From the IMG/VR virus record IMGVR_UViG_3300014502_000335, positions 1 through 46,814 of that record: a DNA stretch of 46,814 bases. One strand, written 5' to 3'. Below, in pieces: positions 13,980 through 39,979 of this stretch. The position numbers and the translations under genes were made by a program. The notes beneath the pieces are model-generated. The model had not been told where the DNA came from, searched no databases, and saw nothing but the letters and a program-made list of their open reading frames with translations. Position 1 is the first letter of the stretch, and each line of letters begins with the position of its first letter. The DNA is from a virus.

Positions 13980-16900
13980 ATGTCCGTTCAAGCAACTAGA
14001 CTCAGCCCGAACGAGCGTCTTGACAAAGAGGACATGGATAATGTTGAGGTGTTCGCTAAGGGTTATTCTGATCTGAAGACGAAGCAGGCATGGCTTGACC
14101 TGAGATCGAGAATCCTGAGAGGATTCAGAATTGAGCTTCCCGATCAAGATCTATATCCTGGTCGTGTCACGATCCATGCTGGAGTCGCTCTCGACATGAA
14201 TGGGCAGTTGATTTTCAATGAGGGTCAGCCTGATGTGTCCAGAACTATTACGCTTCAGGGAGCTGCTACAACCTTCTTTCTGGAGATCCAATTCGTAGAG
14301 GCAGCTGCTGGATTAGACTCTCGTGGGTTCTGGGACCCCACAGTTGACAACGGGACAGATCCGTCTGGTGACCCACGACCTGATGGTCAGGAGTTCAGCT
14401 CTGCTGTTGCAACCAGAACCACAAGGGATTGGAAGATCTTCCAACCTGTTCGTACTGGAGGCAGCAAGTTCTCCGTTGACGGTGATCCTACTTCTACTGT
14501 CATCCCTCTGGTCAAGCTCATCACTGATGCTTCGAACAAGATCAAGGTAGCTGTGAATCCAGGGTTGTTTACAGAGATGGCTGCCACAACGATCTTGGAA
14601 GTGATTTCTGCAACTTCAATTAGAGTTCAAGATTCGACTCTCCTGTCTGATGCTGCTGGATCATTGGTTGTTGGTGATGGTCTTGCTGCACCACCAAAAG
14701 AGACAGTAACTGTCACTACAAACGACAGAGCAACTAATATTGTGACAATCTCTGCTTTGGCTAATACTCATTATCCTGGAGAGATTGTTCGTGTAGCAGC
14801 TGGTGGTCCAACCTTCATTGTTGAAAGTCCATATGGTAGATATGCAAAAGGAACAAATCCAATTGATTACAGAGACAGAATGTTTCAGGGGGATGAAGAA
14901 CATGGTCATCTTCTAGCACGAGGCAGAACAGGTGTTGTCACTGACAGATCTGATGTCAGTCTCCAGTCTTTGAAGGACTACGTGGATTTCCTTTCGGCTC
15001 AGATTCAGGAGTTGAAGTGGGGGGCTACGAGTCCTTATCTTCCTGCAACTGCAGCGGAGAGGCTTCCTCCTGGTCTGGCTGTGCCTCTAGATACTGTTCC
15101 TCGCTACTACAGCCGGTCCTCTGGGGTGAATGGGGCTCGCACAGCAGCCATCACCATTGGGGATGGTGTGACCTCGTGGGGTGACATCAATGGAACCTCT
15201 GAGGTTGTTCTGCAAGCAGCCCACGATGCTCTTCCGGCTGCTGGAGGTAGAATCTTCCTCAAGAGGGGTTCTTACACTCTAGCTAATGATCTGGATTGGA
15301 CCAACACTGGATCAGTCACTATTGAAGGTGAGGAAGGATCTATCATCGTTGTTAGTGGTGGACGTATTCACATCGCTACTACTGGAAGTATTGCACTCAA
15401 GAACATCATCATCCAGGAAGGTACTACTGTGGTTGGCATCCTTGTTGACACTGCCAATCCAAATGGGTTCTGGATGGAGAATGTATTGATGTCTAATGCA
15501 GCTTTCAATTTGAATGCTGCACTTCCGTCTACCTCTTCATTCAGAAGAGTGACTTTTGGTGCTGCTAGTATCGGAATGGCAGCAACACCATTGTTCTGGG
15601 TTGGTACTACTGGAACCGTTTCTGGTACATTCAACGAATGTGACTTCTTCCATGCTTCTATGGTATCTGCATCGTGTTCCTTGATTGATTGTATCAATGG
15701 TACACCAACAATTGCTATGTCTGGTGCTAACTTCGTTGATTGTAGCTTCCTTACACTTCTGACAAATGTTGAGAGTGTAAATCTTGGTTACACCTCAAAT
15801 CTTGTGGCCTTTGACAGATGCTACTTCGCATCTGGTCTTACTCTTTGTCATGTTCGAGCCTTTGGTGGAACTAATATCAAATTCACTAACTGTATCGGTA
15901 TGGATTCTATTGCTGCATTCTTCCAAGGCATTGATGTAACTCATGTTGAGGTGTCTGGATACCTCAATAACAACACTGTTGCTTTTCCAGCAGTTGAACT
16001 AGTCAACTGTAACAGAGCCAGAATCAGGGGTTGTGATGTAAAAGTTAATTCAACGGTGTCTTTGGCTGGATGTGCTTTTCTAATCACATGTACGACTGGC
16101 ATCGTTGAAGACACTTTGATTGAAGGCAATACAATTAAGGGTGACACTACCAAGGGGCCGCCTACAGACTTCTCTCTGACGACTGGGATCATCTTCAGGA
16201 ACAATGGTGGTGCTCTCACAACTTTCAGTAACATCAGAGTTAGGGGAAACTGTTTTGACAGTGTTGAGACTGGAATCTATTTTGCCAACCCAGGAGTGAC
16301 AGGTATTTATGCTGGTGTAAATGTTAGTGGTAATCAGTTCACAGACAATTCTGGTGGTCTTGGCATAGCTCTCAATTTTAAGTTGGGAGTTCTGTTTGGG
16401 GCATCCAGCGTTCTGAACGATGTTGATGTTGTCGAGAATTGTTTCGAGGGTATTGGTGCTCGTGTTGTGGATCTAGTTGCTGGCAATCCTCGTACAGCAA
16501 TCAGATTCTTGGGAGCATTTAACAACAACATAAACATCCTGAGCAATGTTATAAGTGGTGTTGGTAGTTTAGTTAATACTACTAGTGATAGTGCAGGTAT
16601 TTACCTTTCAACGTTAGCAAGTGGATCAATTGTTGGAAATACCGTTCAATCTGTTTGTGGGATAGGATCTTGGGGGATTCATGTTGGTGGCTATTTGTAT
16701 AGCTGCACTGTTACGGGCAATGTGTTCAAGGATATCAATTCTCCTACTGGAGATGCAGCTGGAATCAATATTCCTAACTGCAGTGACTCTACATTGTCTT
16801 CCAACACGTTCAATAACATCACTAGCACTGCTGGTGGCATGGGCTACGCTATCCTAGCTTCCACAATTACAGGAACCATAGAAAACGTTTCTATGGTTGG

Positions 16901-17546
16901 CAACAACTGCTTCAGCGGAGATGCAACATCAAGTTTTATCAAAATCAATGTTTTCACTACAAAGAAGGTATCTATTACTGGAAACACCTTTAACAACATT
17001 GTTGGTGCTGCTGCAGAGGGAATTCTTGTTATGGCAGCAGGCACTGGTGGTGACCTACAATCTATTACCATTACTGGGAACATTCTAACATGTGCCCAAG
17101 ACGGCATCACTGTAGATTCCATCACAGCAGCAGTATACAAAAATGTAGCTATTCAAGGTAACAACATAACTGCATTGACAGAGAATGGTATTAATGTATA
17201 CAGGATCATAGGTTGTACTATTACTGGAAACACAATTCACTGTTATGCAGATAAGTGGAACATCTACTGTGAGTATTGTACCTGGCTTAGTATCACAGGA
17301 AACAACTTATGGCAGGATGTTGGCACAGCAGCGGGTAATATCGAGCTGGAAGTTGGTTGTGATAACTATCTTGTGCAAAGCAATACCTGTTATATAACAG
17401 GAGCATTCTTCACCATACAAACCTCAGCTGCAGTCGGTGGAGGTAAAGGTATGGTTTCGGAAAATCTAATTAGTGATGGTGCAGACCTTAGGGTTAACGA
17501 CAATGCAGTTGGATCTGGAACTGGAAGTCCAAACATTCAGATTTAA
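13980..17546 (+). CDS. tail spike with parallel beta-helix
   Basis: 1188 residues with AAGGAG upstream. Residues about 1-200 form a baseplate-attachment region containing one beta module like that of the preceding gene. From about residue 390 to the end the sequence is a right-handed parallel beta-helix of the pectate-lyase/NosD type: many turns with ITGNTF, VSGNQF, IQGNNI and similar, each ending in N or C/F stacks. Phage spikes of this shape bind and often cleave surface polysaccharide. I cannot identify catalytic residues, so enzymatic activity is possible but unproven. The many GN-turns are visible directly; the receptor role is inferred. Confidence 0.75.
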   Translation: MSVQATRLSPNERLDKEDMDNVEVFAKGYSDLKTKQAWLDLRSRILRGFRIELPDQDLYPGRVTIHAGVALDMNGQLIFNEGQPDVSRTITLQGAATTFFLEIQFVEAAAGLDSRGFWDPTVDNGTDPSGDPRPDGQEFSSAVATRTTRDWKIFQPVRTGGSKFSVDGDPTSTVIPLVKLITDASNKIKVAVNPGLFTEMAATTILEVISATSIRVQDSTLLSDAAGSLVVGDGLAAPPKETVTVTTNDRATNIVTISALANTHYPGEIVRVAAGGPTFIVESPYGRYAKGTNPIDYRDRMFQGDEEHGHLLARGRTGVVTDRSDVSLQSLKDYVDFLSAQIQELKWGATSPYLPATAAERLPPGLAVPLDTVPRYYSRSSGVNGARTAAITIGDGVTSWGDINGTSEVVLQAAHDALPAAGGRIFLKRGSYTLANDLDWTNTGSVTIEGEEGSIIVVSGGRIHIATTGSIALKNIIIQEGTTVVGILVDTANPNGFWMENVLMSNAAFNLNAALPSTSSFRRVTFGAASIGMAATPLFWVGTTGTVSGTFNECDFFHASMVSASCSLIDCINGTPTIAMSGANFVDCSFLTLLTNVESVNLGYTSNLVAFDRCYFASGLTLCHVRAFGGTNIKFTNCIGMDSIAAFFQGIDVTHVEVSGYLNNNTVAFPAVELVNCNRARIRGCDVKVNSTVSLAGCAFLITCTTGIVEDTLIEGNTIKGDTTKGPPTDFSLTTGIIFRNNGGALTTFSNIRVRGNCFDSVETGIYFANPGVTGIYAGVNVSGNQFTDNSGGLGIALNFKLGVLFGASSVLNDVDVVENCFEGIGARVVDLVAGNPRTAIRFLGAFNNNINILSNVISGVGSLVNTTSDSAGIYLSTLASGSIVGNTVQSVCGIGSWGIHVGGYLYSCTVTGNVFKDINSPTGDAAGINIPNCSDSTLSSNTFNNITSTAGGMGYAILASTITGTIENVSMVGNNCFSGDATSSFIKINVFTTKKVSITGNTFNNIVGAAAEGILVMAAGTGGDLQSITITGNILTCAQDGITVDSITAAVYKNVAIQGNNITALTENGINVYRIIGCTITGNTIHCYADKWNIYCEYCTWLSITGNNLWQDVGTAAGNIELEVGCDNYLVQSNTCYITGAFFTIQTSAAVGGGKGMVSENLISDGADLRVNDNAVGSGTGSPNIQI

Positions 17547-17558
17547 TAGGAGAAGATA

Positions 17559-17738
17559 ATGGCGAATCCAAGTTTTCCGCCTGTGCTACCTGATAGGGTT
17601 AAGAAGTACATTACAGTGGAAGTAGTTGACGAGAATACAATCAAGTTCAAAGCACTGGATGGAACCGTGCTACAAACTCTCACCAAAGCTCAGTACGAAG
17701 CAATGGTGAAGCCGGACATCAAACCAGTTGTTGGATAA
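17559..17738 (+). CDS. small hypothetical protein, 59 residues
   Basis: ATG 17559 after TAGGAGAAG, stop TAA at 17736-17738. The protein starts MANPSFPPVLPDRVKKYITV and has a short beta-rich centre (EVVDENTIKFKALDG) ending KPVVG. It lies between the spike and the holin-like gene and its end overlaps the upstream part of that gene's reading frame. No family recognised; its position could suit a spike accessory or chaperone. The strong ribosome site and sensible composition make it a likely real gene. Confidence 0.65.
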   Translation: MANPSFPPVLPDRVKKYITVEVVDENTIKFKALDGTVLQTLTKAQYEAMVKPDIKPVVG

Positions 17739-17748
17739 GGAGACTGCC

Positions 17749-18240
17749 ATGAAGAAGTTCCTGTTCGTGCTGGTGTTTTCGATTCTCATCGCCATCCCAC
17801 TGATCGCCTTCGCTCAGGTGCTGGACCCTAGCTTGTCCGCCCCATGGTGGAAGGTTCTGCTGAGCAATCTCCTGCAACTGGTCTTCTCTATTCTAGGTGT
17901 CATGGCTTCGATTCTTGTGACGGTGTTGCTAAAGAAGTATGGGTTTGCAGCTTACACTGACAAACTGAACACTGTCCTAGATCGATGCACAAGTTACGCT
18001 GAGCAGATGGCTCTTCAGGCTCTGAAACTCAATGGAGTACCCATGGGTAGTGCCGCAAAGCTAGAACTAGCTTTGCAGTTTGCTATGGAGAGAGCTAAAG
18101 AACTGGGGCTACCAGAAAAGGGTAAGGAGTGGTGGACTAAAAGGGTTGAATCATGGCTTGGCATTAAAAGCATTGATGTAAACATGGAAATGAAAATGAC
18201 CCGTATTGTCAACAATGGAGCAGTCATAGAGGGCAAGTAA
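17749..18240 (+). CDS. holin-like membrane protein (LLH-type candidate)
   Basis: 163 residues from ATG 17749 (AAGGAG upstream). Two hydrophobic segments lie near the N-terminus: residues about 4-23, which could be a signal peptide ending at AFA, and about 35-60 ([17 protein letters not shown]). A soluble helical part follows with [15 protein letters not shown]. This plan, an N-terminal membrane anchor then an amphipathic helical region with Y/A-EQ motifs, matches phage LL-H-type holins. A holin makes the inner-membrane hole for lysis. The alternative is a membrane protein anchoring the tail-fibre region. Placement among tail fibres rather than beside the endolysin is a caution. Confidence 0.5.
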
Positions 18241-18247
18241 GAATATC

Positions 18248-20230
18248 ATGGGTTCCTTCGATAGAATCTCAGCAGCAATCAAGTCATGGGGTGATAGTGA
18301 TCCTATTACCAAACCTGTATTTGGTACAGATGGATCATTCTGGATTGCTACATCATGGTTTTACAATACGTTAAAGAAGATTGCTGTTGAAATTGATTTC
18401 ATTCGAGGAGTCCATGAATCAGGAGGAGCAGATCTAACTGTTCAATCCTGGGGGGATGGTCTCTACGCGAAACGTGTGGGGACGACTATCATTGGTGCCC
18501 CTGGTGGTGGAGCCACTGGTCCAACAGGACCAACAGGTCCCACAGGTCCCGCTGGTGGTCCTACAGGCGTGTCTGGACCTACAGGACCAACAGGCCCCAC
18601 AGGGATGACAGGTCCTGCTGGTGGAACTGGGATAAAAGGAGCTACTGGTCCCACAGGAATGACAGGTCCTGCGGGCGGCCCTACAGGTCCCTCTGGTCCT
18701 TCTGGACCCTCTGGACCTACTGGTCCTTCTGGGATGACAGGACCCAGTGGTGTCATAGGTGGCACTGGAGGAACAGGTAAAGCAGGACCTACTGGTCCCA
18801 CAGGATCAACAGGTCCCATAGGGATGACGGGTCCTGCTGGTGGAACTGGTCTTACTGGTCCTTCAGGTCCTTCTGGTACGACAGGTCCTTCTGGCCCATC
18901 GGGTGTGTCTGGACCATCGGGTGTGTCTGGTGTGTCTGGCCCATCAGGAACTACAGGTCCCTCTGGTCCTTCTGGGATGACGGGTCCAGCTGGTCCTACA
19001 GGTGAGTCTGGTCCTACGGGTCCTGCTGGTGGCCCTACAGGAGTGTCTGGACCCACAGGTGTGTCGGGACCTACAGGGATGACGGGTCCTGCTGGTGGCA
19101 CTGGAGGAACAGGATCAGCTGGAGGAACTGGTGGGACAGGACCAACTGGTCCTACGGGGATGACGGGTCCTGCTGGTGGCACTGGAGGAACAGGATCAGC
19201 TGGAGGAACTGGTGGAGTAGGACCCACTGGTTCCACAGGGATGACGGGTCCTGCTGGTGGCACTGGAGCTTCTGGTCCATCTGGAGTCTCTGGGGCTTCT
19301 GGAGTTCCAGGAACAGGTGGCACTGGTGGTGCTGGTGGAACAGGTGGCACTGGTGGAGTAGGATCAACTGGTCCAACTGGAGAGACTGGTCCTGCTGGTG
19401 GACCCACTGGACCTACTGGACCCACGGGTGAAACTGGTCCTGTTGGTCCTTCTGGTCTCTCTGGTCCCTCTGGAACTACAGGTCCCTCTGGACCATCAGG
19501 TGTGTCAGGTCCTTCTGGTCCCTCTGGTGTGTCAGGTCCCTCTGGACCATCAGGCGTATCAGGTCCCTCTGGAACTACAGGTTCCACAGGGATGACAGGT
19601 CCAGCTGGTGGAACAGGCGGCACTGGTGGAATAGGTGGCACAGGTGGAGCGGGTGGAACAGGTGGCACTGGAGCTTCTGGTCCATCTGGAGTCACAGGAG
19701 CCTCTGGAGTTCCTGGAACTGGTGGAACGGGAGGAACAGGATCAGCTGGAGGCACTGGTGGAGTAGGACCAACGGGTCCAACTGGAATGACGGGTCCTGC
19801 TGGTGGAACAGGTGGGACTGGTGGAACAGGTGGTGGTGGAGGTGGAGGTGGTGCTACCGATATCTGTGTGCTGCTTGATAAGAGCACAGACAGTCCAAAT
19901 GATAGTGCGAAGGGAGCCTTTAGCTTCGATTCAAATGACTATTCCACGGCTACTACGATCAAATTCAAAGCCACAGGCTACACCACGAATGTGTCTGCAG
20001 CACTCACAGGCACACTCACGCTCTACAACAAGACTGATAGTGCAGCCGTAACTAGTGGTGCATTGACTTTCAACTCTGTGACGATGGGGCAACAGATCAC
20101 AGTAGACATCAAAGCAAACCTTCCAGCATCGCTCAAAGTTTATGAACTGCGATTGAAGGTCACAGGTGGTGGTGGTCCTGGTTCACAAGATCTGCTAGTC
20201 ATCGAATCCGCTTACATGGAGATCAGGTAA
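18248..20230 (+). CDS. collagen-like tail fibre protein
   Basis: 660 residues. The N-terminal 80 residues are globular ([11 protein letters not shown]) and probably attach to the tail. Residues about 85-535 are almost unbroken Gly-X-Y triplets ([31 protein letters not shown]), which would form a collagen-like triple helix. Residues about 540-660 form a beta-sandwich-like head with acidic residues ([15 protein letters not shown]). Collagen-like stalks occur in phage fibres as trimeric spacers. The repeats are highly similar at DNA level, so length changes by recombination are likely. The antisense strand of the repeats is also open but is a by-product. Its stop overlaps the next ATG. Confidence 0.8.
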
Positions 20231-28840: not shown

Positions 28841-28968
28841 CAGAAGATCAAGTAGTGGAAATTAGAAGTCGCTACAGTAATGGTATACCTACAAAACAGT
28901 TAGCTAAAGAATTCAATATTAGTAGAAGCAATATCTACCATATTCTCAACAAAAGAAGTTGGACATGA
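28816..28968 (+). pseudogene. frameshifted C-terminal HTH segment of the HNH gene
   Basis: In the -1 frame relative to the HNH gene the sequence reads GERSGRSKLTEDQVVEIR followed by LAKEFNISRSNIYHIL, the common C-terminal helix-turn-helix of HNH_3 endonucleases. It ends in a TGA that overlaps the helicase ATG (ATGA), the normal coupling seen in this genome, which shows it is the original 3' end. One missing base near the GGG at 28814-28816 (e.g. GGGG to GGG) explains the break. No slippery heptamer is present, so mutation or sequencing error is likelier than programmed shifting. Confidence 0.65.
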
Positions 28969-30455
28969 AAAGGTCTGTACAGCACATAGAGCTACTCAGA
29001 AAGAGTAAACAGAGTGCCCTGGAAGCAGTAGGCAGACAATACAACTGTATTATAGTGGTAACTGGAGCTGACGCTCGAATCGACGGCTCCTTCCCTGTAG
29101 ATGTAGTGGTGAATGCAACGTCGTACTTCTCCCCTGGATACAAGTTCACGCAGAAGTACCGTTCCGGTTTGTGGGATGGGCGAATCAAGCTATTCAGTAA
29201 GATCAAACGAACCTTCCCAGCTGGACTTGCAAACCTGGTTCTGGAGGAGCTGAGGAAGCACAAGGTTCAGGTGCAGCTGGATGATCGTCGCTACTGTCCC
29301 AACTTCACCGTCCACTTCCCTGAGACCTTGCCAGGGGCATCCTTTGCCCACCCCTTTGACTTCCAGCCCGTCTGTGCCTTTGAGATGGCTAGAAGACAAA
29401 GAGGAATAATTGGAGTAGCAACTAATGGGGGTAAATCCACCATCGCAGCGTTGTTCATTGCTGCAACAAAGATTCCAACGTTGTTTATGGTGCCCAACAG
29501 GACACTTCTTTATCAGACACAAAAGGTTCTGGCTCAACGTTTGAGTTTGAAACTTGAGGAGGTAGGACTTATCGGAGATGGACACTGGGAACCCAAACAA
29601 TGGGTGACTGTTTCCACAGCTGATACCCTTTATGCCAGATTGACAACTCCAATCTGTATAGACTTCTTGAAGTCTATACAATTACTGATAGTTGACGAAT
29701 GCCATCACCAGGGGGCAGACTCTTGGTATATGGTATCTCGTGCTTGTCCAGCCTTCTATCGATTCGGTTTGAGCGGCACACCTCTGAAGAGATCTGATGG
29801 TGCTGACCTCAGACTGATTGGTGTCACAGGACCAGTCATCTTCGAAGTGAAGAACAAGGAACTGGTTGAGAGGAAGATCAGTGTGCAGCCTATCATTCAC
29901 TTCTTGAAGATCACCAAGCCTTTGCTACCAAATAAGATGCCATACCGAGAGGTTCACAAGCTGGGCATCGTGGAGAACCCCTACCGCAACAACGAGATCT
30001 GCAAGGCGGTAGCTGACTTCGTGGAGCAGGGGTTGAGTGCTTTGATCGTTGTTGACGAAATCAAGCACGGAGAGATTCTAGACAAACGGTTGTGGACCTT
30101 CAAACAGAAGCTGTTCATCCCTCACCAGTTCATTAACGGTCAGGAAGAGATGGAGATCAGACACAAAGCTCTGGATGACTTCAGACGAGGGGACCTGAAG
30201 GTGCTCATCGCCACCAGCATCCTGAATGAAGGTCTGGACATGCCCAACATCGATGTCCTGGCTTTGGCTGCTGGGGGCAAGAGCCTCATCAACCTGCTGC
30301 AGAGGATTGGTCGTGGGCTTCGTCGGGGAGGGAATTCAGACCAGCTGCATGTGATTGACACAGCTGACTTCCAGCACAAATATCTGTTGAAACACTCCTT
30401 GCAGAGAATGCAGGAGTACCGTGACCAGGACTGTTTTGAGATAAAGGTAGCATAG
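28965..30455 (+). CDS. superfamily 2 DNA helicase, UvsW-like
   Basis: 496 residues from ATG 28965. An N-terminal domain (about 1-110) with YKFTQKYRSGLWDGRIKLF is characteristic of UvsW-type phage helicases. Then Walker A ATNGGKST (about 153), DECH box VDECHHQ (about 243), SGTP motif III (LSGTPLKR), and motif VI QRIGRGLRRG (about 446). These ATP-driven enzymes branch-migrate and unwind recombination or R-loop intermediates during phage replication. The Walker A has Asn-Gly-Gly instead of the usual Gly-x-Gly. It follows the HNH gene by an ATGA overlap and overlaps the next GTG. Confidence 0.85.
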   Translation: MKRSVQHIELLRKSKQSALEAVGRQYNCIIVVTGADARIDGSFPVDVVVNATSYFSPGYKFTQKYRSGLWDGRIKLFSKIKRTFPAGLANLVLEELRKHKVQVQLDDRRYCPNFTVHFPETLPGASFAHPFDFQPVCAFEMARRQRGIIGVATNGGKSTIAALFIAATKIPTLFMVPNRTLLYQTQKVLAQRLSLKLEEVGLIGDGHWEPKQWVTVSTADTLYARLTTPICIDFLKSIQLLIVDECHHQGADSWYMVSRACPAFYRFGLSGTPLKRSDGADLRLIGVTGPVIFEVKNKELVERKISVQPIIHFLKITKPLLPNKMPYREVHKLGIVENPYRNNEICKAVADFVEQGLSALIVVDEIKHGEILDKRLWTFKQKLFIPHQFINGQEEMEIRHKALDDFRRGDLKVLIATSILNEGLDMPNIDVLALAAGGKSLINLLQRIGRGLRRGGNSDQLHVIDTADFQHKYLLKHSLQRMQEYRDQDCFEIKVA

Positions 30456-31503: not shown

Positions 31504-31838
31504 TTATGTTCCTTGCTAGGACATCACAGACCATAGTACAGGAGATGATCAACAACCTCAGCCGAAGCATACCTGGGGTTGATACAAGTTTAGGATCAAA
31601 CTTTCGCATGCTCTTGGAGGTGGTAGCAGAGCAGATTGCTGATTTGGAGATACGACTAGCAATGTCTGTAGGAGTTGTTAACATCTGTCATATTTGTGGT
31701 CACAACATTGCAGAACAGCCAGGTAATGTTTGTAACCTTTGTAAGATAGCGGTTAACAAAAAGATGTCAGAGAAAGAAGAGGAGTTTGTAGGACCACCAG
31801 AGCCTCACCGTCCTCCTGGTTATTGGAATATTCCATGA
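31500..31838 (+). CDS. hypothetical protein with zinc ribbon
   Basis: 112 residues, ATGA overlap with the amidase. The N-terminal half (VQEMINNLSRSI, then GSNFRMLLEVVAEQIADLEIRL) resembles the N-terminal helices of gpJ-like proteins. The middle has a CxxC..CxxC zinc ribbon (CHICG, CNLC) separated by 15 residues, followed by a Pro-rich end. No named family. The stop overlaps the methyltransferase start. Confidence 0.5.
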   Translation: MIMFLARTSQTIVQEMINNLSRSIPGVDTSLGSNFRMLLEVVAEQIADLEIRLAMSVGVVNICHICGHNIAEQPGNVCNLCKIAVNKKMSEKEEEFVGPPEPHRPPGYWNIP

Positions 31839-33523
31839 AGACTCCATTCCGCAAAGATGCATTCTGGGGGTCAGTACCTCTTCCTATGACCAAGGTACTA
31901 GGTGGAGTGATCTGGCAGATGGATGCAGTCGATTTGGTAAGGAGTCTCCCTGACGAGTCTGTTGATCTTGTCGTTACGGACCCAGCATGGGAGTCGCTTG
32001 AGAAGTGGAGATCTACAGGCACCACAACACGACTCAAGCATTCCAAAGGATCAAGCAATGACTGGTTTCAGACGTTCCCAAACTCTAGGTATTACGAACT
32101 GTTCCACGAATTCTATCGTGTCCTGAAACCAGGATCATTCTTGTACATGTTCGCTGATGAGGAGACTCGTGATCTAATCTGCACAGGCTACTCTCCGCAG
32201 ACAGACAGGTACATCACAGTGGATGAAGGACAGGTCCAGCTGGGGCATGGTCCTCTGCTTTCAGCCAAGTTCAAATACTGGAAGGCTTTGGTTTGGGACA
32301 AGATGTGTGTTTCAGATGATACTGAAGCTTTGACACCTAATGGATGGCAACCACGATGTAACTTAAAGGTTGGTGATCTCATAGCTTCAGTAGAACGCCC
32401 TAAAACAAGATTGGTTTGGAGACCAATCGAAGCTATGAATAGTTATTCTGTGATTAATGAACCTATGGTTCATGTAAAGACATCACTAGTAGATATGCTT
32501 ATGACTGAGAATCATAATCTATTTATTAGAGGAAGAGAATTAATCACAGCAAAAGATTTACTTTCAATGAGTAAGCATAATTGGAAAATACCAGTAGGTG
32601 CTGAGAGTCATCTTCATGGTAGAAATGGATATCCAGGATCACTTGCAGTAGCTGAGCTAAAAGGATGGTATGTAGCAGAAGGATCTCCTTTAAATACTGG
32701 AGCTTTGATATATCAAACAAAATCACAAGGACGAAATCGAATAAAATCACTGTTGGACAAACTTGAATGGACTTATACTAATAGACCAGATCGTTTTTAC
32801 GTTCATGCATCATCTGCACAAGATCTTCGGTCTTATGGAAAAACAATCAGGAGAGAGTCTCTTAGTTGGCCAGAACCAGAGATGAGAGCATTCTTTAATG
32901 GACTAGTAGGTGGTGATGGTCATCTATTTGAATCTGGACGGTGTCATTTCTGGCAAAAAGACAAAGATCAAATTGATTTGTTTCAAGAGCTTTCAATAAA
33001 ACTTGGATATTCTTGCAATGTCAATAAGTGTAAAGGAAAGAATCTTTGGATTGCATCGGCTAGACTAACACGGTGGACTAGTTTTAGGCAATCTAATGTT
33101 TACCAAGAGATGTATTCTGGTATTGTGTGGTGCCCAACAGTAGATACCGGGTACTGGCTAGCAAGACGTAACGGGAAACCATTTATCACTGGTAATTCTA
33201 GAGGTATGGGATACCACTTCCCAGCACAGCATGAGTTCATTATCATGGCTGAGAAGGTGAAAGGCTCCAAGCATCGTCGGTTGAATAACAATGCTATTGG
33301 TGATGTTGTTTCAGTAAAGAGATTGAAAGGTAAAGCTTACTATCCCACGGAAAAGCCTATTGAGTTGATCAGAGTTCTCATCTTTGAATCAACCAACGAA
33401 GGAGATTGTGTCCTTGATCCCTTTGCTGGTAGTGGTGTGGTTGGAATAGCATGCAGAGGACTAAAGAGACAATTCATCCTTGGTGATATAGAACCCAAGG
33501 AAGCTCTCCGGAGACTGGGATGA
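31835..33523 (+). CDS. DNA methyltransferase interrupted by an intein
   Basis: 562 residues before splicing, from ATG 31835 (ATGA overlap). Extein N-part: catalytic motif TDPAWE (about 47-52), a DPPY/DPPW variant, then a GSFLYMFADEETR strand. Extein C-part after the intein: GMGYHFPAQHEFIIMAEK, PTEKPIELIRVLI and SAM-binding DPFAGSG (about 530). This order (catalytic motif first, SAM motif last) is the beta class of N4-cytosine/N6-adenine methyltransferases. An intein occupies residues 158-454; the spliced enzyme would be 265 residues. The product may guard phage DNA from host restriction. TDPAW rather than DPPY/W is unusual. Confidence 0.8.
   Translation: MKTPFRKDAFWGSVPLPMTKVLGGVIWQMDAVDLVRSLPDESVDLVVTDPAWESLEKWRSTGTTTRLKHSKGSSNDWFQTFPNSRYYELFHEFYRVLKPGSFLYMFADEETRDLICTGYSPQTDRYITVDEGQVQLGHGPLLSAKFKYWKALVWDKMCVSDDTEALTPNGWQPRCNLKVGDLIASVERPKTRLVWRPIEAMNSYSVINEPMVHVKTSLVDMLMTENHNLFIRGRELITAKDLLSMSKHNWKIPVGAESHLHGRNGYPGSLAVAELKGWYVAEGSPLNTGALIYQTKSQGRNRIKSLLDKLEWTYTNRPDRFYVHASSAQDLRSYGKTIRRESLSWPEPEMRAFFNGLVGGDGHLFESGRCHFWQKDKDQIDLFQELSIKLGYSCNVNKCKGKNLWIASARLTRWTSFRQSNVYQEMYSGIVWCPTVDTGYWLARRNGKPFITGNSRGMGYHFPAQHEFIIMAEKVKGSKHRRLNNNAIGDVVSVKRLKGKAYYPTEKPIELIRVLIFESTNEGDCVLDPFAGSGVVGIACRGLKRQFILGDIEPKEALRRLG
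32306..33196 (+). mobile_element. intein with LAGLIDADG homing endonuclease
   Basis: 297 residues. Splice block A: CVSDDTEALTPNGW with Cys1. Block B: MLMTENHNLFIR (TxxH motif). Endonuclease blocks: LKGWYVAEGS and FFNGLVGGDG, two degenerate LAGLIDADG helices with the catalytic acids. Blocks F and G: VDTGYWLARRNGKPFITGN, ending in Asn, followed by Ser as +1 nucleophile. The penultimate residue is Gly where His is usual. Joined exteins read ALVWDKM-SRGMGYHF, matching the uninterrupted methyltransferase family. The segment is AT-richer than the exteins. Confidence 0.85.
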
Positions 33524-34156: not shown

Positions 34157-34578
34157 AGCAGCCCTACGTCTTCTCCAAGGTCGCCGTCGTGGGTTCCAGG
34201 ACGTTCATGCGTCTGGACCTGGTTCGCCTCCTGGTGAGGCTCCTGGGCCGCTGCATCATCGTCAGCGGAGGGGCCATTGGAGTGGACACAGTGGCTGCTG
34301 ACGAAGCCAGGCGGTTGGGCTACCCAGAGCCATTGATCTTCCCTGCGAACTGGAAGAAGTACGGGAAGCCAGCAGGTATGATCCGCAACAAACAGATTGT
34401 GGTTGCTAGCGACGGCTTGGCTATCTTCTGGGACGGTCAATCACGAGGAACTCACGGAGCCCTCATCGAAGCCAAGCGGTCCAAGAAGCCTATCATCTTA
34501 GTGACAGAAAGTGATGCAAAGGTTACGATAGAACCGATTGGATGGGAGCATGTCCCAGGTCCTCAAGCTAGAGTTTGA
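34153..34578 (+). CDS. SLOG/DUF2493-type nucleotide-binding protein
   Basis: 141 residues, TTG start overlapping the upstream TGA. Rossmann-like features of the DUF2493/YAcAr branch of the SLOG superfamily: VAVVGSRTF, IIVSGGAIGVDTVAADEA, WKKYGKPAGMIRN and FWDGQSRGTHGALIEA. SLOG proteins bind nucleotide-derived ligands and occur in nucleotide-signalling and modification systems as well as phages. Specific ligand unknown. The end overlaps the start of the DnaJ-domain gene. Confidence 0.75.
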   Translation: MKQPYVFSKVAVVGSRTFMRLDLVRLLVRLLGRCIIVSGGAIGVDTVAADEARRLGYPEPLIFPANWKKYGKPAGMIRNKQIVVASDGLAIFWDGQSRGTHGALIEAKRSKKPIILVTESDAKVTIEPIGWEHVPGPQARV

Positions 34579-35050
34579 TCCTGTTAATCCTGAGTGGGTG
34601 GGATTTCATTTTGCTCACAATGAGCGAATGCTGAGTCACATCCAATACGGAATCAAGCCAGCTTCCTACCGTCGCTGGAACCCTGAGAAGAAGCGGTGGG
34701 AGGTCCATAGAAACAAGTTTCTAGCATCAGTGGGGATGGGCAAGCGGTTCTTCAACCACGTCGACTACAGTGGGCTTCCAGAGGGGTTCCAAATCCTCAT
34801 CGTGAAGTTCCTCAAGGACCACGCAGGAGGCTCTCCAGGAGGCCCAGGAGCCCCTCAGAGCGAAGACCCCTATCAGGTCCTCCACCTGCTACCCTCGGCC
34901 CCGTGGTCGGTTGTGCAAGCGGTGTACAAGGTTCTGGCATTCGAATCCCATCCCGACCGAGGAGGTGACCAGAACCTTTTCCTGCGAATTGATGCAGCGT
35001 TTCATCAGCTGAAGAGAGCGCGAGAGTCACGAGAGGTTTCCAGTGGTTAG
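34550..35050 (+). CDS. DnaJ-domain protein
   Basis: 166 residues; I chose ATG 34550 with GGATGGGAG upstream over a TTG at 34538. The N-terminal 80 residues include YRRWNPEKKRWEV, a motif like the HARP/SNF2-associated region. A Gly/Pro linker follows. The C-terminal 55 residues are a J-domain: DPYQVLHLLPSAPWSVVQAV, HPD in ESHPDRGGD, then FLRIDAAFHQLKRA. J-domains stimulate Hsp70; phage ones may recruit host DnaK for replication or assembly. Followed by the long structured non-coding stretch. Confidence 0.7.
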   Translation: MSQVLKLEFDPVNPEWVGFHFAHNERMLSHIQYGIKPASYRRWNPEKKRWEVHRNKFLASVGMGKRFFNHVDYSGLPEGFQILIVKFLKDHAGGSPGGPGAPQSEDPYQVLHLLPSAPWSVVQAVYKVLAFESHPDRGGDQNLFLRIDAAFHQLKRARESREVSSG

Positions 35051-35116
35051 AAGTTCCTCGAAAAATAACTAGACACCCTACCACGTTCGGAGGTACGGTG
35101 GCAATTCTCAGATCAG

Positions 35117-35247
35117 TGGCCTGGCAAAGTTTCCGTTCAAGGACAGAATGACCAGATAAATCAGTTACATACAATTCCCCCAACCCGGTGAGCCGGGGAA
35201 TCGCCCAGATTCCCGACTCCTTGGACGGTATGCGGCTTGCCAGGCCA
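35117..35247 (+). ncRNA. candidate structured RNA (or DNA structure)
   Basis: Two nested long stems (35117-35127/35237-35247 and 35133-35143/35218-35228) enclose mutually exclusive tip hairpins: CCCGG-TGAG-CCGGG (35184-35197) and GGGAATC-GCCCA-GATTCCC (35196-35214), which share bases 35196-35197. A different pairing of 35177-35188 with 35264-35276 would put a GC stem directly before ATTTTTC. The set looks like a switch with alternative folds. Confidence 0.45.
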
Positions 35248-35282
35248 ATGTCGGTCAAGGCAGCCGGGACTGGGGGATTTTT
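35177..35282 (+). terminator. possible attenuator/terminator arm (alternative fold)
   Basis: CCCCCAACCCGG (35177-35188) can pair with CCGGGACTGGGGG (35264-35276): five GC pairs, a short internal loop, then T-A and five GC pairs. It is followed at once by ATTTTTC, as in a Rho-independent terminator with a very large loop. It crosses the 35117/35247 stem, so the two folds compete or form a pseudoknot. Confidence 0.3.
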
Positions 35283-35285
35283 CAT

Positions 35286-36926
35286 TTGCGAGGAGTTGAT
35301 CCTGTGGCACGAGTAGCCTTCAAATACCCTCCCAAGCAGGATCAACTTTCAGAAGATCAAGATCAGCCAACAGAAGATCAAAAACGATCTCCAAGATCAA
35401 AACGATTGACCGAGGTACTCAGAGTCCTCGCTTCACTGAACAAACGTTCAGCCCCCCTAATATCAAATCAGGATCGATCTTCAAGATCAAATTCCGAGGC
35501 ATGTGTTCTCGGTCATGGAGTCCTTGTACCTACCAGGCGGGTACTCCCGCCTGTTAACTTCAGTATCTCTAATAGGGATAGTAGTATCCTAATAAGCGAA
35601 CGTAGTGAGCTTATTAAGGATACTACTATTAGTACAAGAGATACTGAAGTTGACTCTAATACCAAATCAATTAATTCAGAGAATATAAATACTAATACAA
35701 GAAATATTAATACTCAGACGCGCGATCCCCGTACTACGGAGGCCCAGAGTGGAAACCAGAAAGCAAGTCGATCTCAAGATCAATCAGAAGATCAAAAACC
35801 AACTAAGCCTGTGGCAGCAAAGGAATCAGGAAAGCGAACAGTTCTGGAATCACATCCAGAAAACCCCAGACTACCAGTTAGAGTTTCAGTTTGGACCGCC
35901 GAAGGAGTAGCTCCGGAAACCGCTTTAAAACGTTCTCCCAGAGAAGTCACTTTAAAAGCCCCTTTAAAACGTTCTCCATTGCAGGTGGTTTGTGAGCGAA
36001 GCGAAAGCCAGAAAGACCGCATTGGTGAGGCTGGCAAAGAAGCTGGTCGAGGAGATCAAACAAGACCTCGAACAAGCTTCAAAAGGTCCGTGGGAAAGAA
36101 CCCTGACCCTGAGGCTCATCACGGACGAAGACCATCCAGGCGAGCTGCAAATGATTTTGGAGACTCAAAGAGGCCAAGTCCCAAAGACGGTGATTCAGGC
36201 AGCTCAAAGGCTCCTCAAGCAGCTCCAAGGCGTCAGGCCCATAAAGCCCCTCTCAAGCCGCCGAAAGCCCTTCTGGAGCCTCTCAGGCCCGTCCAAGGCA
36301 CCCTCCACAAAGCCACTTTAAAAGCAGCTCAGAAGGCCAAGCGGATTGCGTTGGGTCAGGAGAAACGCAAAGCCATCCTCGGTGATGAAACTCTATTACC
36401 GAAGATCAAAGAAATGGCTTATGCCTACGAAGCTGTCTTGGGTGAATACGTTCACAATCATCGATTGAGATTCATCAAAGGTAGCATCTCCCCAGAGCAT
36501 CGATCATTCGCACAATTCAAGAGGGCGGTACTGATTGCAGATCAGATTGGCGTTTCCTATGAAACCTACGTCAGAGCCCAGTTCTATTGGTTTGATAAAT
36601 GGTTCAATCGAGCCCCACACCCATACGAGCTTTCCGGTTTGAAGTCGAAGTTTCCTGCCCCAGAGCGCGTTCGCAAGTATCTCCAGCTGGTCAATGAAGG
36701 ACAAACCAAAGGGATCGTCACCTGTATCGGGAAGCGGGTACAGATCGACGCCAAAGAGCTTGACAAAGCTAATGATCAACGGTTGGATCAACTGATGCTC
36801 GCATGGGGTCTCGACGAAGAAGGAGTGCTGCTTCGATTTGCCAGATCTGGAGTCGGTTACTTTGATCATGAGTGGTTGAAGAAGAATCCAACATGGCAGA
36901 GGCTGAGACAGGAGAAGAAGCTGTGA
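35286..36926 (+). CDS. large ORF: disordered N-terminus and helical C-terminal domain
   Basis: Up to 546 residues from TTG 35286. Residues 1 to about 340 are low-complexity (Ser/Asp/Gln/Arg/Lys; repeated SEDQ, RSPRS, LKRSP) and are encoded by DNA full of direct and inverted repeats. Residues about 345-546 look like a folded helical domain (SFAQFKRAVLIADQIGVSYETY, FYWFDKWFNRAPHPYELSG, QRLDQLMLAWGLDEEGVLL). The real gene may start internally, e.g. TTG 36351 or ATG 36414, leaving the front as non-coding. A second, more protein-like frame overlaps at 35992-36321. The position before replication genes would suit an initiator-type protein, but this is a guess. Confidence 0.45.
   Translation: MRGVDPVARVAFKYPPKQDQLSEDQDQPTEDQKRSPRSKRLTEVLRVLASLNKRSAPLISNQDRSSRSNSEACVLGHGVLVPTRRVLPPVNFSISNRDSSILISERSELIKDTTISTRDTEVDSNTKSINSENINTNTRNINTQTRDPRTTEAQSGNQKASRSQDQSEDQKPTKPVAAKESGKRTVLESHPENPRLPVRVSVWTAEGVAPETALKRSPREVTLKAPLKRSPLQVVCERSESQKDRIGEAGKEAGRGDQTRPRTSFKRSVGKNPDPEAHHGRRPSRRAANDFGDSKRPSPKDGDSGSSKAPQAAPRRQAHKAPLKPPKALLEPLRPVQGTLHKATLKAAQKAKRIALGQEKRKAILGDETLLPKIKEMAYAYEAVLGEYVHNHRLRFIKGSISPEHRSFAQFKRAVLIADQIGVSYETYVRAQFYWFDKWFNRAPHPYELSGLKSKFPAPERVRKYLQLVNEGQTKGIVTCIGKRVQIDAKELDKANDQRLDQLMLAWGLDEEGVLLRFARSGVGYFDHEWLKKNPTWQRLRQEKKL
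35534..35553 (+). repeat. perfect 8-bp GC hairpin
   Basis: CAGGCGGG and CCCGCCTG flank the loop TACT. It lies one base before the long palindrome at 35555-35652. Confidence 0.6.
35555..35652 (+). repeat. 98-base near-perfect palindrome
   Basis: Outer arms 35556-35570 (AACTTCAGTATCTCT) and 35637-35651 are perfect 15-base complements, with a T-G closing pair outside. The inner arms ATAGTAGTATCCT (35578-35590) and 35617-35629 are perfect over 13 bases; AATAAGC (35591-35597) pairs with 35609-35615 around an 11-base loop, with one bulged A. This is one of the strongest secondary structures in the window and is unusual inside an open frame. Confidence 0.65.
35923..35977 (+). repeat. 16-base direct repeat CTTTAAAACGTTCTCC
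   Basis: Two exact copies at 35923-35938 and 35962-35977, spaced 39 bases apart, with a partial third (ACTTTAAAAG) between them at 35949 and another at 36315. In frame they encode LKRSP twice. A short TTCTC-CCA-GAGAA hairpin overlaps the first copy. Confidence 0.55.
35992..36321 (+). CDS. hypothetical protein overlapping the 35286 ORF in another frame
   Basis: 109 residues, GTG 35992 with AGGTGG upstream. In this frame third codon positions are mostly G or C and the product looks folded: KKLVEEIKQDLEQASKGPW, TLTLRLITDED, ELQMILETQRGQV, TVIQAAQRLLKQLQG. The overlapping frame of the 35286 ORF gives a disordered Arg/Ser/Pro-rich string over the same bases. I think this frame is the genuine one here, at least up to about 36250. 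Function unknown. Confidence 0.5.
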   Translation: MSEAKARKTALVRLAKKLVEEIKQDLEQASKGPWERTLTLRLITDEDHPGELQMILETQRGQVPKTVIQAAQRLLKQLQGVRPIKPLSSRRKPFWSLSGPSKAPSTKPL

Positions 36927-38623: not shown

Positions 38624-39979
38624 GTGGCTTTTCGTTTCTATAGGGATTTTCAAATCAAAATACTTGCACTGATGCATCAGGACTTTGACTTCCTGATTGC
38701 AACACATGAATTAGTGCTTCCTGAGTATTTTAGTGATGAGATACTTTGCTGGTACTTCCTGGCCATTCGAAATCACTACATGGATTACCAGATGAGGATG
38801 GGGCAGGACGCTCTGCGAAACGAGCTTCTCAAAGCTGCAGGTAGGAAGAAGATTAAGGATGCTGACTTCCCAGCTTATGCTCAAGTTTTTACTACAATGC
38901 TGGAACCAGTTCACGACAAGAAGTACATACAGAATGAGGTGCTTAAGTTCTGCAGGCACCAGGCGATCAAAGCTGCTGTTCTCAAGTCTCCTCAGTTGTT
39001 GCAGGATGACAAGTTCGATGAGATCGAATCGACCATGGTGGAAGCTGTTCGTACAGGCTCCAACGTGGCTGATATTGGAGAGTTGTACTTCATCAATTGG
39101 CCAGAGAGACTGAAGCGTCGAGCTATTGAAGAGTCGACGCTGATCATTCCCACAGGGATAACAGGGCTGGACATCTTGCTGGGTGGGGGCATCCACGGAG
39201 GTCAGGTGGGTCTGTGGATGGCTCCCACGAATCGTGGCAAGAGTGCAGCGTTGGGTCACTGTGGCAAGCGAGCGATCATCCAAAGGAAGAAGGTGCTGCA
39301 CTTCACTATGGAGATGCCACAAGACGAAGTGTGTGGACGATACGATGCAACCTTCACGAAGATCAACATGCGTGACCTTCTTGATATGGAAGGTCAGGTC
39401 GCCGAGAAGCTAGAGAGGTACGGGCATCGTTGGGGCAATTGTTTGATCGTGAAGGGATACCCAACGAAGACAGCTTCTGTGCAGACGTTGCGTAGTCATA
39501 TTTTTCAGTGCTGTGCGCTCGGATTCGAGCCTGATTTGATCTTGGTTGACTATCTAGATCTTTTGAAACCACCAAGGTCATATAAGGAGAAGAGAGACGA
39601 GTTGACTTCCACCACAGAAGCTCTGAAGGGATTGGCTTTGGAGCTGAAGCGTGGGATCTGGACTGGCACGCAATCTCAGCGGGCAGCTATCTCCATGGAG
39701 ACCCATACAGAAGAGAACGTCTCTGAGGATATTGGTAAGATTAACAACGTTGACATAGCCATCACCATGAACCAGACCAAGGAAGAGGTGCGTCAAAAGG
39801 TGATGAGGCTTCTGTTGGCGAAGAATCGAAATGGTCCAAAATATGAAACAGTTACAATTAAGATGGCTCTGGAGCGTATGTGTTTCTTTGAACTCGTAGG
39901 TCCAGTTTTTGTAAATCCGCCTACGTCTCTTACTACACCTGCCAAGCACGTCAAGAGACAGCCATACAAATTGACTTGA
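38624..39979 (+). CDS. DnaB-like replicative helicase
   Basis: 451 residues, GTG start one base after the previous stop. An N-terminal helical domain (about 1-160) precedes a RecA-type core: TGITGLDILLGGGIHGGQ, Walker A APTNRGKSA (about 205), FTMEMPQDE (motif H1a-like) and Walker B LILVDYLDLL (about 310). Later Q(S)QR motif TGTQSQRAA (about 350). This organisation matches hexameric DnaB/gp41-type helicases that unwind DNA at the phage fork. Ends QPYKLT. No primase domain is seen in the window. Confidence 0.8.
   Translation: MAFRFYRDFQIKILALMHQDFDFLIATHELVLPEYFSDEILCWYFLAIRNHYMDYQMRMGQDALRNELLKAAGRKKIKDADFPAYAQVFTTMLEPVHDKKYIQNEVLKFCRHQAIKAAVLKSPQLLQDDKFDEIESTMVEAVRTGSNVADIGELYFINWPERLKRRAIEESTLIIPTGITGLDILLGGGIHGGQVGLWMAPTNRGKSAALGHCGKRAIIQRKKVLHFTMEMPQDEVCGRYDATFTKINMRDLLDMEGQVAEKLERYGHRWGNCLIVKGYPTKTASVQTLRSHIFQCCALGFEPDLILVDYLDLLKPPRSYKEKRDELTSTTEALKGLALELKRGIWTGTQSQRAAISMETHTEENVSEDIGKINNVDIAITMNQTKEEVRQKVMRLLLAKNRNGPKYETVTIKMALERMCFFELVGPVFVNPPTSLTTPAKHVKRQPYKLT

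Follow-up and report, generated by a model that had tools for sequence, protein, structure and literature searches.

A candidate replication origin embedded in a putative initiator gene of an uncultivated phage

The replication origin of bacteriophage lambda lies within gene O, where four iterons of dyad symmetry stand beside a high-AT region (PMC6022878), and lambda P, which loads the helicase, is afterwards removed by the host DnaK/DnaJ/GrpE system (PMC6391071). In plasmid pIP501, RNAIII exerts copy control through antisense-RNA attenuation of rep (PMC4981023). The function of phage DnaJ homologues has been described as not well understood (PMC12619734). For most phage lineages represented only in metagenomes, both the replication start and the initiator are unknown. 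In this study, we analyzed the virus record IMGVR_UViG_3300014502_000335, a 46.8-kb contig whose whole length (46,814 nt) is referred to as the window, and describe concrete candidates for both.

The structured features of the locus are spread over a 253-nt gap (35051–35303) and the first 700 nt of the adjoining gene (35304–36926, plus strand), which starts with GTG and encodes a 540-residue protein designated here as Rep, a putative initiator or helicase loader. As in lambda, dyad repeats and an AT-rich tract lie inside the open frame of the putative initiator, a helicase gene is near, and a J-protein is at hand (in lambda, host DnaJ, which acts at that origin). Unlike the four regular 18-bp iterons of lambda, the AAGATCAA octamers of the window are irregularly spaced and a long palindrome is added, and the DnaB helicase and the J-protein are phage genes. 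Rep matches no Pfam or PHROG family, and no homology to lambda O was found; only a distant analogue, in Listeria phage P100, matches O-like PHROGs. The locus also resembles iteron plasmid origins in having short repeats clustered in one orientation, dyads, an AT-rich tract and an initiator gene in cis, but differs from them in its irregular spacing and its location inside a coding frame, and no plasmid Rep homologue was found. From this anatomy and from the relatives described below, we lean with modest confidence toward reading positions 35291–35980 as the phage replication origin, embedded in the 5′/linker part of its own initiator gene.

The Rep protein and its gene neighborhood

The open frame of Rep extends from 35286 to 36926, and its likely start is the GTG at 35304, which follows an AGGAG ribosome-binding site (35291–35306 for both, plus strand). 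The N-terminus reads MARV, as does that of the homologue in L100. A codon-usage score favors the Rep frame from 35500 on and is undecided for 35320–35560. The frame ends in a conserved, all-helical C-terminal domain (36414–36923, plus strand; AlphaFold2 mean pLDDT 83) that is found in other uncultivated tailed phages: the last 170 residues are about 40% identical in L003, 42% in L100 (matched part), 33% in L087, 26% in L088 and about 20% in L007–L013. The preliminary description had taken the frame over the palindrome to encode only low-complexity sequence; the sequence there is of low complexity, but it belongs to a real gene with this conserved domain. With the frame open, start signals present and a conserved domain at its end, a purely non-coding stretch of 0.9 kb is ruled out. 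A structure search with the C-terminal domain gave no significant PDB match and weak phage matches only, the Foldseek viral matches including P100 gp43 (E 0.8). No confirmation of a winged-helix N-terminus was found, and the L087 Rep, folded at full length from its sequence alone, gave too poor a model. A second frame (35992–36321, 109 aa, GTG start) overlaps the Rep linker and has a globular-looking translation; we rejected it as an overlapping gene, as it has no Pfam match and a worse codon score than the Rep frame.

The surrounding genes, all on the plus strand, form a conserved replication neighborhood that begins with a UvsW-like helicase gene (28959–30455; Pfam ResIII/Helicase_C/UvsW_N), 37–52% identical in L005–L013. 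Directly upstream of Rep lies the gene for a J-domain (DnaJ-like) protein (34538–35050), whose match to DnaJ PF00226 (E 1.6e-4) is under the Pfam gathering score; it carries the HPD motif, which is present in 11 of the 12 J-proteins compared, and the J-proteins of L087, L025 and L011 exceed the Pfam cut-off. A DnaB-type replicative helicase gene follows at 38624–39979 (DnaB_C, E 9.5e-17; phrog_19, E 4e-67). In L007–L013, the UvsW-like helicase gene is followed in order by those for a small protein, the J-domain protein, Rep and DnaB; in the window, further genes separate Rep from each helicase. The order J-protein to Rep is kept in L003, L087 and L088, with the UvsW-like gene upstream in L003 and L088 and DnaB near Rep in L087 and L088; no DnaB gene was found in the L003 contig. 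This steady pairing of J-protein and initiator would offer a role for phage DnaJ homologues. Genome G001 (UvsW 52% and Rep 42% identical) has its Rep elsewhere, with a short linker that has none of the window features. In its locus L025, a long tRNA-like run (15020–18500) comes right after the J-protein, the place of Rep in other phages.

Herelleviruses have a similar arrangement. SPO1 and P100 encode one protein (gp20.1 and gp43; PHROGs 14232 and 1098, respectively) between two helicases, just as Rep lies between the UvsW-like/DNA helicase and DnaB, and the top matches of the window DnaB are SPO1 gp21.1 and other herelleviruses; a single-protein scan using this DnaB yielded no loci. The PHROG of SPO1 gp20.1, phrog_14232, was reached by two of nine Rep family members (best E 2e-4), and P100 gp43 has an N-terminal HTH that resembles O-like initiators. 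Direct hhalign comparison with the herellevirus proteins was weak (probability 5–28%, P 6e-4 to 7e-3). Judging from position and these profile matches, the Rep family is likely tied to the herellevirus inter-helicase protein. Since the counterpart in SPO1 and P100, weak as its similarity is, lies between the two helicases, Rep probably acts as an initiator of replication or as a helicase loader. Unlike the window family, SPO1 and LysYB1 have no annotated J-protein between the helicase and the Rep counterpart. The literature searched held nothing usable on a mapped origin of SPO1 or another herellevirus. The module is present in more than 10 uncultivated phage contigs, and its possible link to SPO1 and P100 matters in that their counterpart is accessible to laboratory work.

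Repeats, hairpins and the AT-rich tract inside Rep

The repeats listed in the preliminary description were all recovered. Six AAGATCAA octamers, all on the plus strand, fall into two clusters. The first (35353–35490) comprises the octamers at 35353, 35374, 35393 and 35483, which are candidate iterons, together with the dyads GATCTCCAAGATC at 35386 and GATCTTCAAGATC at 35476, while the second (35770–35795) comprises the dyad GATCTCAAGATC at 35770 and the octamers at 35776 and 35788. An 8-bp G+C hairpin, CAGGCGGG-TACT-CCCGCCTG, occupies 35534–35553, and two plus-strand copies of the 16-base direct repeat CTTTAAAACGTTCTCC start at 35923 and 35962 (35923–35977). The palindrome, which had been described as a near-perfect one of 98 bases, is real and is the contig's best inverted repeat by gap-free score (35553–35654), but it is not near-perfect: its arms (35553–35590 and 35617–35654) are 84% complementary and enclose a mismatched internal loop. 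Capable of forming a hairpin or cruciform, it folds with its flanks to −70.6 kcal/mol, compared with −32.1 for shuffled sequence (z −9.9). Two further features had gone unnoticed. An 11-bp perfect inverted repeat, AGTTGATCCTG-(32)-CAGGATCAACT (35294–35347), spans the Rep start, and the AT-richest tract of the contig, a candidate DNA unwinding element, adjoins the palindrome, starting at 35653 with a 60-nt window (35653–35712, 18% GC) or at 35611 with a 100-nt window.

Over the whole contig, AAGATCAA occurs 23 times against 3.3 expected, and the densest cluster is the six in 442 bp found here. Their spacings (21, 19, 90, 293 and 12) are not those of regular iterons, and they occupy two reading frames. 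Contig-wide, the octamer has a strong strand bias, 19 of the 23 copies lying on the plus strand, and GATC sites are numerous (320 in the whole window).

Synonymous-codon shuffles (n = 60) that preserve the protein and its codon usage demonstrated an excess of both hairpin and octamers at the DNA level. The best 110-nt fold of the locus (−53.1) was reached by none of the 60 shuffles (−32.3 ± 3.4), and none contained six octamers (mean 1.25). Comparable excesses were seen for the hairpins of L003 (−54.0 versus −37.0, 0/60) and L010 (−38.9 versus −28.3); that of L087 was borderline (2/60), and those of L007, L008 and L013 showed no excess. Because hairpins and octamers were the grounds on which the region was picked, independent evidence comes only from the AT-rich tract and from the comparison with relatives.

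No close nucleotide relatives of the window were found in phage records, and since the palindrome and the octamers occur in no relative, it is the anatomy that is common and not the sequence. The same part of the gene in L003 contains a 13-bp perfect inverted repeat, a GATC cluster and direct repeats, and no other 100 nt in the 15.8-kb locus are as AT-rich as those found there. L087 has a repeat resembling AATGCTACGTTA in common with L003, and the AT maximum of the 10.6-kb L087 locus, taken over 100 nt, also falls in this part of Rep. In L008, three iterons AGAATTGAATTGTGAAAAG, 147 and 105 bp apart, are followed by an AT-rich tract. The Reps of L088, L011 and L012 are short and have no in-gene element.

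The matching segment of relatives was found to be under selection at the DNA level. When residues conserved among L007, L009 and L010 were compared pairwise, identical codons were used at 55/59, 56/59 and 112/118 positions (93–95%) in the 5′ part of Rep, defined as codons 1–120 (1–150 for the closest pair), versus 76/162, 75/175 and 143/225 (43–64%) in the rest of the gene (P 4e-11 to 7e-14). A block containing CCCTATATACGTAGTATATAGGG is identical across the three.

Such features could also accumulate without function in a tolerant low-complexity linker, as repeats or an inverted duplication left by slippage or by insertion of a palindromic element. The linker does vary widely in length and sequence among relatives, G001 manages without the element, and the palindrome falls in the single frame without stops. 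This explanation appears unlikely, however, given that L003 and L010, whose sequence here is unrelated, again have hairpins in excess of what coding imposes and that the AT-richest 100 nt falls in the same place in the window, L003 and L087. As for a mobile palindromic element, a pattern search found no second copy in the genome contigs, and the sole match among viral contigs was a chance, non-palindromic one in a gene that looks structural; we therefore rejected it. Long hairpins can act as terminators, packaging sites or recombination sites, and the structure might serve such a role unrelated to initiation. We regard this as very improbable, because no plus-strand terminator was called at the palindrome, which sits inside the putative initiator gene and adjoins the AT-rich tract.

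The leader and signs of RNA control

The 253-nt gap between the J-protein gene and Rep (35051–35303, plus strand) is the longest among the genes listed for 0.3–36.9 kb, and the gap at this junction measures 121–327 nt in relatives. It contains the nested arms noted earlier, GGCCTGGCAA/TTGCCAGGCC (35118/35238) and CCGTTCAAGGA/TCCTTGGACGG (35134/35219), which together span 35118–35144 and 35219–35247 and give a z-score of −3.2 for 35112–35254, which weakens to −1.6 once more of the surrounding sequence is included in the fold. An alternative fold is predicted on the same strand, in which an extended hairpin is followed by T5 at 35278–35282 (35182–35282), resembling a possible attenuator; calculated for 35182–35290, it reaches −52.1 kcal/mol (z −2.9) and is incompatible with the nested arms. 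A promoter-like match (9/12) lies at 35148–35175. The structured leader thus described probably controls Rep synthesis. Neither tRNA nor tmRNA was detected, no Rfam family was matched at the gathering threshold, and a permissive scan gave sub-threshold hairpin matches only.

In relatives L007, L009 and L010, this position bears a regulatory signature. All three conserve a minus-strand promoter, TTGACA-18-GATAAT (11/12), shortly after the Rep start, and in the hairpin before Rep three double changes are compensatory and every pair is retained. The terminator scan rates this hairpin in L007 as a minus-strand terminator of 15 pairs with a T-rich tail; in L009 and L010 it has a T run on the minus strand and a loop too long for the terminator scan. 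Promoter and compensated hairpin define candidate minus-strand antisense RNA loci (L010 13305–13465, L009 5790–5951 and L007 13260–13390), and this signature predicts an antisense RNA of about 125 nt over the Rep start. All three also have a plus-strand terminator-like hairpin within Rep codons ~45–55, and in L008 a 13-pair minus-strand terminator with T7 adjoins the Rep start. An antisense promoter and an antisense terminator covering the leader of the initiator gene, together with a sense terminator-like hairpin, resemble pIP501 at the level of sequence signature. Unlike pIP501, the window does not show it: no comparable antisense promoter was found there, and the minus-strand terminator tail is poor.

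These signals raise the alternative that the locus mainly controls Rep synthesis at the RNA level, with a leader attenuator or antisense RNA setting the amount of initiator and the origin possibly located elsewhere. The two mutually exclusive leader folds, the conserved antisense promoter with its compensated hairpin and the terminators of both strands in relatives all argue for it, and the codon-conservation test fits RNA control equally and cannot separate it from an origin. Nevertheless, we consider this account doubtful as a full explanation: the signature of relatives is not matched in the window, promoter and terminator scans were mostly just slightly above shuffles, and repeats and an AT-richest tract 300–500 nt into the gene would be unexpected for a leader regulator. 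RNA control and an origin may coexist, and a regulated leader upstream of a lambda-like origin is the second part of the reading we favor.

Proposed mode of initiation

The preliminary description had offered the region as a replication origin or a regulatory locus. This reading fits the comparative evidence well with respect to the replication-module context, the DNA-level selection in relatives, the AT-rich tract, and an excess of hairpins and repeats over what coding requires. It needs amendment in that the element sits inside a putative initiator gene and not in non-coding DNA. The comparison with related phages recovered a compensated hairpin before Rep but neither the palindrome nor the octamers. 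No GC-skew switch was found in the contig. Both halves of the reading may be right, since the antisense-RNA and terminator signature appears at this place in relatives.

If the locus is an origin, we infer that Rep or a partner would bind the GATC-containing octamers and dyads, and that the Rep complex would melt the AT-rich tract (35653–35712) while the palindrome possibly extrudes as a cruciform. Recruitment of the phage DnaB helicase would then fall to the C-terminal helical domain of Rep, and the J-domain protein encoded upstream might recruit host DnaK to remodel the initiator–helicase complex, much as the host pair DnaJ/DnaK acts on lambda P. We raise tentatively that these genes constitute an undescribed module in which a J-domain co-chaperone, an initiator with an internal origin and a helicase are encoded together, a phage DnaJ-type factor drives host DnaK in helicase loading, and the locus also encodes an attenuator or antisense RNA that limits the initiator.

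Two other features of the contig were observed. A GC-rich segment (18251–19450) carries dense short repeats, with CTGGTGGA present up to 10 times per 715 nt. A DNA methylase gene (31823–33523) is split by a LAGLIDADG-containing insert, and because the L025 homologue is uninterrupted (255 aa), the comparison suggests an intein or homing insertion.
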